A stretch of 64,000 nucleotides of DNA from Microcoleus sp. AS-A8 (lineage in GTDB: Bacteria > Cyanobacteriota > Cyanobacteriia > Cyanobacteriales > Coleofasciculaceae): NCBI GenBank assembly GCA_039962225.1, contig JAMPKV010000011.1, forward strand, positions 1 through 64,000, read 5' to 3'. Positions 22,024 to 48,014 of this stretch are shown here, one piece after another. The position numbers were made by a program, and so were the translations under genes. The notes below the pieces were generated by a model. It ran no database searches. It was not told the DNA's origin and saw only the letters and a program-made list of their open reading frames with translations. How positions within the stretch are numbered: position 1 is the first letter of the stretch; every line of letters begins with the position of its first letter.

Positions 22024-22335
22024 TTAACTAACGACGGCAAGGATGTCCTTTTCCGACAGCAAGACGTACTCTTCTGTACCCAGTTTGATGTCGGTACCCG
22101 CGTACTTAGAATAGAGAACCTTGTCGCCGATTTTCACTTCAGGTTCGCCACGACTGCCATCATCGTTACGCTTTCCAGGGCCGACAGCCACAATTTCACC
22201 GACTTGAGGCTTTTCTTTCGCGTTATCGGGTAACAAAATGCCCCCAGCGGTTTTTTCTTCAGCGGCGCTAACCTTGACGAAAACGCGATCGCCTAACGGC
22301 TTAACAGTGGAAACACTTAGAGATACAGCTGCCAT
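22024..22335 (-). CDS. groES: Co-chaperonin GroES (10 kDa)
   Basis: Lid of the GroEL complex. 103 residues with the typical [12 protein letters not shown] start, [14 protein letters not shown] mobile-loop region and [12 protein letters not shown] near the C-terminal half. First gene of the groES-groEL operon; a CIRCE operator lies 41 bases upstream of its start codon, so it should be repressed by HrcA and induced by heat. Confidence 0.98.
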
Positions 22336-22375: not shown

Positions 22376-22402
22376 TTAGCACTCTCAGCTCCTGAGTGCT
22401 AA
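22376..22402 (-). promoter_or_regulatory. CIRCE operator (HrcA site) of groESL
   Basis: Perfect match to the CIRCE consensus TTAGCACTC-N9-GAGTGCTAA, located between the groES start and the upstream intergenic region. HrcA binds this inverted repeat and represses chaperonin genes until heat stress. Confidence 0.97.
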
Positions 22403-46157: not shown

Positions 46158-46571
46158 AGATAAACTCCTTAGCCATGCATCTAGTATGCAATCTGCATTG
46201 GCTTTCCAGTCGGAACAGGAAGGCGCTGTGATTTTTCTTCGCGATTGCCCTCAAATTTCCTCATTTTCAGGATGAGAGAACTGGAAGAACGAGAACGCTA
46301 GAGAATTCAAAGCCTCTCAAGAGCATCACAGAGGTTGAGAGAGAGCCTGTAAAAACTAAGCTAGGGGTTAAGGAAGTGGGGGTTGATGTGTAGCGAAACA
46401 CAAGCGAAATGGCCTCAGTTTAAAAGAACACGCCAAAAATGATTCAGGAAGTCATCCTCCTACCCTTTATATCATTAATGGGTAGGAGAGTTCCCACAAA
46501 ATTACCACCTATGTAAATCAAATGACTGTACTAGGGGAAGTTTTGCTGACAATCGTCTTTTAACTTTTGTC
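46158..46571. other. Non-coding interval with a long hairpin
   Basis: About 410 bases. A 9-bp perfect stem with a 14-base loop (46457-46488) lies 84 bases beyond the stop of the 116-aa gene on the minus strand; it may be that gene's transcript end. Nothing else was recognised. Confidence 0.5.
46457..46488. repeat. Stem-loop CTCCTACCC / GGGTAGGAG
   Basis: Perfect 9-bp stem around a 14-base AT-rich loop, downstream of the gene at 46572-46922. No T-run on either side. Confidence 0.6.
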
Positions 46572-46922
46572 TCAAATATTTTTATCGAGTAGAGTCTCAA
46601 ACTCCGCCTTTAATGAGCCGATATCAGCAACTCTTGCCACTAACAAATTATCACGACCTGCATCACATAACCGTGTTTTCCAATACCGAATCGGTTCCGA
46701 GTGGTTGACCCAGAATTGAATCACTGTGTCCACGACCTCATCCATGTTCCAACCTTGTTTGGGGGGTACAGTCTCGATCGATTCCAGGAAAGCGTCAAGC
46801 TTACATTCATAGCTTCCCAAGTATTCAATTCCTGCGGTTAGAGGTTTTTGGACAAAATTTTGTTGATGATTGAAAAAATCGAGGACAGGAGAAATTCCTA
46901 AGATTTCAAATGTATATTTCAC
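46572..46922 (-). CDS. Unknown 116-aa protein behind tandem CIRCE operators
   Basis: Start is GTG with GAGGGG about nine bases upstream. The predicted protein is soluble, mixed alpha/beta (LGISPVLDFFNHQQNF, then WNMDEVVDTVIQFWVNHSEPIRYWKTRLCDAG and a closing LKAEFETLLDKNI helix). No known family or motif recognised. Two CIRCE-like sites lie about 120-180 bases upstream on the same transcript side, so it is probably heat-induced through HrcA. This makes it a candidate chaperone-associated or proteostasis factor; function otherwise unknown. Confidence 0.7.
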   Translation of the reverse strand: MKYTFEILGISPVLDFFNHQQNFVQKPLTAGIEYLGSYECKLDAFLESIETVPPKQGWNMDEVVDTVIQFWVNHSEPIRYWKTRLCDAGRDNLLVARVADIGSLKAEFETLLDKNI

Positions 46923-47044
46923 TACTATACCCCTCTTTTTTGGTAAGCTCTACAAAAGATTGAACCTATTATGCTCAGTGGATGTTTCCTTAACATCTAA
47001 CTCAAGTTCAGGTCTTTTGTAAACCATTAGGAGGAATTTTTTTG

Positions 47045-47071
47045 TTAGCACTCTGAACGCTAAAGTGCTAA
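47045..47071 (-). promoter_or_regulatory. CIRCE-like operator, copy A
   Basis: TTAGCACTC-N9-AAGTGCTAA: 17 of 18 consensus positions, only the first base of the right arm differs from GAGTGCTAA. Spacer is exactly nine bases. Nearest downstream gene in this orientation is the 116-aa unknown. Confidence 0.85.
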
Positions 47072-47078
47072 CTATAAA

Positions 47079-47105
47079 TTAGCAATCTAAGGATTCAAGT
47101 GCTAA
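47079..47105 (-). promoter_or_regulatory. CIRCE-like operator, copy B
   Basis: TTAGCAATC-N9-AAGTGCTAA: 16 of 18 consensus positions with exact spacing. Centre-to-centre distance from copy A is 34 bp. With copy A it would allow two HrcA dimers to bind side by side. Confidence 0.75.
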
Positions 47106-47195
47106 TTAAGAACGATTCTTTTTGACCCCCATTAGTCCTCCCTGAGCCAGCAGAAAAACTAATTTTTTCTTTCATTTATACCTACCAAACAATAG

Positions 47196-47216
47196 AGGCA
47201 CGATCTGATCGTGCCT
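47196..47216. repeat. Inverted repeat downstream of the cytochrome gene
   Basis: Perfect 10-bp arms around a single T. The stem would need the inner bases to open. It lies 70 bases past the cytochrome stop on the minus strand and may help end that transcript. Confidence 0.5.
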
Positions 47217-47285
47217 GACAAATTCCGTATTGAATCTCAAGAAAAACTGCTCTTAGCCAAATACAGACAAGGGTGATTTTAATCC

Positions 47286-48014
47286 CTAAGGTGAGTTTTC
47301 CCAATCTGGCGTAAGACGACGGTAGTTATATTGAGCTGCACCCGGATGACAGATCACACAGCTTGCAGGCTTCACCGTTTGAGAGAACTTCACTCGTGGA
47401 TGCAGCGCTTTGAAATAAGGAGATTCTGAAATCCGATAGGGAAGCGGTTTTTTGGCCTCCTCTGGACGCGAATACGCCCGTATGTAGTCCCACATCGTGA
47501 TTAGCACGGGACCGATCAACGGCTTTAATTGCTGACCAAAATGCTGCTCTGGCTCTAAAAGCAGACGACGCCAAGTTTCTGAAGGCAAAACTTCGGGAGG
47601 GAGAGGAACGTGGCAACTGGCACAGTTTTCTAAGTAAAGTTCTTTCCCAAGCTGATAGCGAGGCGTAACGGGGTCTACGGTACCCGTCTCTTCAGCTGTC
47701 CCCTGAGCGATGAGATTGGGTTGGGCAGGGATTCCCAGCGAGATCTCCGCTTGTTGCGGTGCGATTTGTGCGATCACCGCTTGAGGGCTGCCAAATGCGA
47801 TCGCCATTCCCCACCCCAAGGAGATACTCCACACGAGCAGCAAAAACAACAACACGATAGGGGAACGCCCTCGCTGATACCCTTTGGGTTGAGACTTGAC
47901 GGATTTAATTTTCTCAAACCTCCTACTAGCAAGGCTGGGAAAATCCCAAATCCAAAATCTAAAATCCAAAATGGTATTACGTCCTCGAATTCTAGACCTC
48001 ACACGCTTGGGCAT
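47286..48014 (-). CDS. Membrane-anchored dihaem cytochrome c
   Basis: Two haem-binding CxxCH motifs: CASCH in the middle and CVICH near the C terminus, 242 residues from the chosen ATG at 48014. A hydrophobic segment (about 53-75) anchors or exports the protein; the region before it includes ILDFRFWIWDF, which is encoded by AAATCCA-type heptamer repeats and is probably not original. Dihaem proteins of this size are known in cyanobacteria (DHC family), with unsettled role in electron transfer. The gene overlaps nothing at this start; the longer frame would overlap moxR by 58 bases. Confidence 0.85.
   Translation of the reverse strand: MPKRVRSRIRGRNTILDFRFWIWDFPSLASRRFEKIKSVKSQPKGYQRGRSPIVLLFLLLVWSISLGWGMAIAFGSPQAVIAQIAPQQAEISLGIPAQPNLIAQGTAEETGTVDPVTPRYQLGKELYLENCASCHVPLPPEVLPSETWRRLLLEPEQHFGQQLKPLIGPVLITMWDYIRAYSRPEEAKKPLPYRISESPYFKALHPRVKFSQTVKPASCVICHPGAAQYNYRRLTPDWENSP
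47938..47974. repeat. AAATCCA-type heptamer tract inside the cytochrome gene
   Basis: Consecutive heptamers (AAATCCC, AAATCCA, AAATCTA, AAATCCA) encode part of the N-terminal leader of the cytochrome. The tract keeps the reading frame open. Confidence 0.75.

Follow-up and report, generated by a model that had tools for sequence, protein, structure and literature searches.

HrcA and CIRCE

HrcA is a heat-shock repressor and CIRCE, a palindrome without direction, is its operator. Cyanobacterial HrcA controls groESL and groEL2 through CIRCE (PMC2662882, PMC5381637, PMC7760821 and PMC8400943, in excerpt), and the CIRCE-bearing cyanobacterial genes named in the portions of open-access papers that were found are chaperonin genes. 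In Synechocystis, transcription of groES has been found to begin at the first base of the CIRCE loop (PMC2662882, in excerpt). Arrays of a Synechocystis hrcA mutant show effects on genes that lack CIRCE and that lie outside the Hsp60 family (PMC7760821, in excerpt). In the delta-proteobacteria, groESL is the constant HrcA target, to which lineage-specific targets have been added: hrcA-grpE-dnaKJ, and rpoH in Geobacter sulfurreducens (PMC545781, in excerpt). The locus that is described here bears two CIRCE operators upstream of a gene of 116 codons that, judging from comparative sequence analysis, is probably a conserved, lineage-specific and non-chaperonin member of the HrcA/CIRCE regulon, kept under repression by HrcA until heat stress lifts it.

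A CIRCE pair upstream of a 116-aa gene

The window (the entire stretch of DNA that was analysed, 64,000 nucleotides) was scanned with the operator pattern TTAGCACTC-N9-GAGTGCTAA, which has 18 arm positions, allowing at most 3 mismatches. Three matches were found; dinucleotide shuffles of the window have a mean of 0.03 matches and a maximum of 1, and none of 100 shuffles reaches 3. An earlier note on this DNA had described two inverted repeats with nine-base spacing, matching at 17 and 16 of the 18 positions, and a perfect CIRCE at the window's groES; scan and shuffles bear out the pair, and the scan also finds the perfect site at groES. The features of immediate concern are:

22376-22402, no strand assigned: perfect CIRCE of groES (0 mismatches), the window's reference site
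46572-46922, minus strand: the 116-aa gene, with GTG start, putative HrcA target and member of an uncharacterised family (ORF listing, homologues)
47045-47071, no strand assigned: CIRCE operator nearer the 116-aa gene, 17 of 18 arm positions matching (1 mismatch)
47079-47105, no strand assigned: CIRCE operator farther from the 116-aa gene, 16 of 18 arm positions matching (2 mismatches)
47196-47216, minus strand: terminator-like hairpin of the upstream cytochrome-type gene (motif search)

The two operators of the pair start 34 bp apart, with a gap of 7 bp between them, and lie 123 and 157 bp from the start codon of the 116-aa gene; the CIRCE of groES (ORF 22024-22335, minus strand, named by eye) is closer to its gene, at 40 bp, a difference that counts against HrcA control of the 116-aa gene. 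The entire 7.75-Mb genome has only four CIRCE sites with 2 or fewer mismatches: that of groES, a perfect site upstream of a second groEL (at C28:57074; this ORF was also named by eye) and the pair. Two further CIRCE-like sites, with 3 mismatches each, are no more than chance would yield: at 3 or fewer mismatches the reversed pattern, as control, matches 5 times in this genome (and at 2 or fewer not at all). The genome has a single copy of hrcA, with one match above the PF01628 cut-off.

The 116-aa ORF, on the minus strand, is the gene whose start lies downstream of the pair. The earlier note had proposed this GTG-started ORF, and it is a real gene, as judged from its homologues, from the matching of starts (its GTG aligns with the ATG of the homologues) and from its differences from the closest relative (G001), whose distribution over the three codon positions (6/1/12) is that expected of a coding gene. 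Its upstream neighbour on the same strand is a cytochrome-type gene (dihaem cytochrome c match) that ends 180 bp from the CIRCE sites. On the downstream side 414 bp separate the 116-aa gene from the next one, which has a PRC-barrel match, and an operon is therefore unlikely. Downstream neighbours were also considered as a clue to function and dropped: the nearest downstream ORFs of the homologues belong to many different groups, the largest accounting for 11 loci.

CIRCE upstream of the homologues

Homologues of the 116-aa protein are found in 61 of 97 relatives and in 186 of the 388 genomes of the class (Cyanobacteriia); the family is Cyanobacteriia-wide. Upstream DNA was gathered for 155 homologue loci, of which 13 were removed as gene-DNA duplicates, and the 450 bp upstream of each of the remaining 142 homologues were searched for CIRCE. 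Fifty-eight of the 61 matching relatives are covered (G028, G070 and G088 were left out), and the 186 matching genomes of the class are sampled in part, mostly where the match was stronger (two genomes of f45 are included, and none of f34, whose matches are weak). A perfect site is present at 11 of the 142 loci; with 1 mismatch allowed the number rises to 34, with 2 to 51 and with 3 to 55. Since the loci are a chosen set, the figure of 51 in 142 should not be read as an unbiased estimate. (Among the relatives, a less selected sample, a CIRCE with 2 or fewer mismatches is present in 16 of 58.) The controls are empty or nearly so: the reversed pattern matches at none of the 142 loci at any threshold, the first 330 nt inside the genes hold no CIRCE at 2 or at 3 mismatches, and composition shuffles of the upstream DNA yield none at 3 or fewer. 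Over 97 whole genomes the reversed pattern matches a total of 7 times at 2 or fewer mismatches (summed over rows), and the 51 site-bearing loci are therefore beyond chance.

The sites are not evenly spread. In a well supported Nostocales-type clade of 38 rows, most of whose named members are records of Nostoc, Rivularia, Calothrix and Richelia, CIRCE is present in 35. Three Nostoc records (L038-L040) are named examples with perfect sites. Two of the exceptions in the clade, L043 and L101, carry 3-mismatch sites (L102, which is a DNA duplicate of L101, has 2 mismatches); the other, L095 in G429, has a perfect CIRCE at -1499, with a DDE transposase gene intervening. At this last locus (L192/L095) an 8-base overlap of the aligned flanks resembles a target-site duplication, and the insertion offers a natural test of a homologue deprived of its operator. 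Outside the clade CIRCE is scattered: at least one site is found under 16 of 45 family labels, coded and NCBI names overlapping so that these labels are not distinct families. When the presence or absence of CIRCE is mapped on a quickly built tree of the 142 proteins, 16 changes are required, against a mean of 42 for shuffled labels; well supported branches make at least 4 of the 16 unavoidable. Gain and loss of the site are not distinguishable on this tree, because the protein is short and many of the forks are unsettled. Three loci (L144, L167 and L168) have CIRCE-like sequences with 3 or 4 mismatches in a similar upstream place (-110 to -122); these are perhaps diverged HrcA sites.

The remaining 91 of the 142 loci, including those of the close relatives Moorena, Symploca and Symplocastrum, are without CIRCE at 2 or fewer mismatches, from which it follows that the proposed HrcA control is lineage-specific. 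The earlier note had suggested a search for the gene and its operators in other cyanobacteria, taking homologues without CIRCE as evidence against HrcA control; the search turns up loci of both kinds. The comparative pattern thereby marks lineages, with Nostoc relatives that have a perfect site set against Moorena and others that lack one, as natural controls.

Five places with extra CIRCE sites in relatives were looked at. One, in G002, precedes a second groES. In G083 a CIRCE-like site with 2 mismatches (L194, G083:C4:271234-271260) lies 275 bp from the start of an Hsp20-family gene, which is possibly a further HrcA target; this arrangement was seen in one genome only. No chaperone gene is evident beside the extra sites in G003 and G021. 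Those in G021 (L196 and L197, on C70 and C306) share one CIRCE-like sequence, 2 mismatches off consensus, and each lies close to a contig end.

Operators or relics

Between the window's genome (G000) and its closest relative, G001, none of the 36 arm positions of the pair has changed, non-consensus letters included, while 10 of the 25 positions of loops and spacer differ (by alignment, counted by eye; Fisher p 3.6e-5). The arms, unchanged amid diverged loops and spacer, argue against a decaying relic. It could still be supposed that HrcA control is a thing of the past here, the sites being relics or of too little strength, and that the gene now runs from a promoter nearer to it: the operators are 1 and 2 positions off the consensus, many homologues either never had the site or lost it, and a conserved block does lie nearer the gene (see below). 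Set against the constancy of the arms in G001 and the perfect sites that other genomes have kept (11 of 142), this reading is improbable. The earlier note's proposal of a new HrcA-regulon member is strongly supported by the recurrence of the site at 51 loci and by the conservation of the arms; it does not extend to the family as a whole, 91 loci being without the site.

Two or more sites are present at 11 of the 142 loci when 3 mismatches are allowed, and at 14 when 4 are. Their spacings are 24, 34, 43-45, 57 and 66 bp, with 91 bp in one locus. One homologue, L170 in G310, has three identical CIRCE-like sites upstream at exact 57-bp intervals, and this triple is a recent local duplication of the operator. 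The earlier note had raised cooperative or graded repression by paired sites; doubling of the operator does recur, but without a common spacing that would favour a single cooperative geometry.

Which transcript do the operators serve?

CIRCE being palindromic and directionless, the pair might act on something other than the 116-aa gene, either a divergent gene or a non-coding RNA of the plus strand, with the 116-aa gene as a bystander. An upstream ORF is listed for 49 of the 51 site-bearing loci (these ORFs were called mechanically, at 60 aa or more, and some may not be genes). At 18 of the 49 the closest ORF on the upstream side is divergent and belongs to one family, of which the member that was tested is an EamA transporter; here HrcA could act in both directions. 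Among the remaining 31 loci the upstream neighbours fall into 27 other groups, so that the 116-aa gene is the constant partner of CIRCE. In the window itself the upstream gene is on the same strand as the 116-aa gene, as already noted, and an Rfam search of 46500-47400 gives no match. The bystander role is improbable, and the 116-aa gene is the common target.

Two sequence elements have been considered in regard to where its transcription might start:

46962-47007, minus strand: conserved block nearer the gene, possible second promoter (common to nine CIRCE-less relatives, chosen by eye)
47071-47098, minus strand: weak promoter-like TTGAAT-N16-TATAGT between and within the operators (motif search)

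The second of these, which would put the start inside the nearer CIRCE, was demoted as a candidate promoter: promoter-like matches in the region are at chance level (3 found, 2.0 expected) and it is not conserved in G001. The first consists of ACTTnAGTnnGATG, followed further on by CATAAT or CATACT, and may be a second promoter outside HrcA control. HrcA may then add a heat-induced transcript to a basal transcript of the 116-aa gene. An RNA thermometer in the leader was also considered and found unsupported: the single fold has a z of -1.76, with 14 of 200 shuffles folding as well, and the consensus fold of 11 leader sequences has 0 pairs.

For HrcA-controlled expression of the 116-aa gene the following course of events is proposed. 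HrcA dimers would bind both CIRCE operators, and bound HrcA would block a promoter that overlaps or abuts them. Heat or misfolded protein would draw off GroEL, which keeps HrcA active, so that repression would be lifted and the 116-aa protein produced together with GroES and GroEL. At this gene we infer HrcA binding, repression, heat induction and the position of the promoter.

The 116-aa protein

The protein has a mass of 13.4 kDa and is acidic, with a computed pI of 4.8 (family median, 4.9). Among 56 family sequences Trp58 and Trp71 are invariant and Cys40 is nearly so. Searches of Pfam, NCBIfam, PHROGs and PADLOC give no match at E up to 1; specifically, none of the known chaperone and heat-shock families in Pfam and NCBIfam is matched at that limit. 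None of 71 pattern matches in viral contigs encodes a relative of the protein, and a plasmid search for relatives gave no match. Two AlphaFold2 runs on the same 17 sequences ended with mean pLDDT of 42.1 and 43.2; these models are unusable, because in fold searches models of such low confidence give meaningless matches.

The sole PDB profile match below E 0.01 is to the helix-turn-helix protein YbaQ (2eby), with E values of 3.5e-4 and 3.7e-4 over 63 positions of the family, and it would fit a DNA-binding regulator that relays HrcA's signal further down. Least probable of the alternatives, such a relay finds no backing in Pfam scans of 26 family members (no helix-turn-helix family among matches at E up to 10), in a YbaQ match that becomes no stronger when the profile is enlarged from 26 to 56 sequences, or in the structure models; the similarity to YbaQ is probably due to chance.

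The earlier note's suggestion of a chaperonin-linked factor is a guess, the protein offering neither a domain match nor a usable structure. A helper role in protein homeostasis can be read from its regulation alone, and only tentatively. It is rather unlikely that the family is an unrecognised partner of the cyanobacterial chaperonin system (an adaptor or modulator of GroEL1, GroEL2 or HrcA, for example) and, with that, that its HrcA control has a history of repeated gain, loss or reinforcement by additional operators as cyanobacteria evolved. What an uncharacterised conserved family under CIRCE does provide is a testable lead to a new component of the heat-stress response in photosynthetic bacteria.

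Comparison with known HrcA regulons

No naming of the 116-aa family as an HrcA target was found in the available portions of the open-access literature, a scope that is separate from subscription papers and regulon databases. The pair upstream of the 116-aa gene has the same operator sequence and the same nine-base spacing as the CIRCE of cyanobacterial groESL and groEL2. It differs from them in its target, which is not a chaperonin gene, and in its operators: there are two of them, they depart slightly from the consensus, and their distance from the start codon is greater. The closest likeness in the make-up of a regulon is to the extended HrcA regulons of the delta-proteobacteria, where lineage-specific additions also accompany a constant groESL. 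The delta-proteobacterial additions are known heat-shock genes, however, whereas the addition here is an uncharacterised cyanobacterial family. What is new is the target family; the logic of its regulation is classical.
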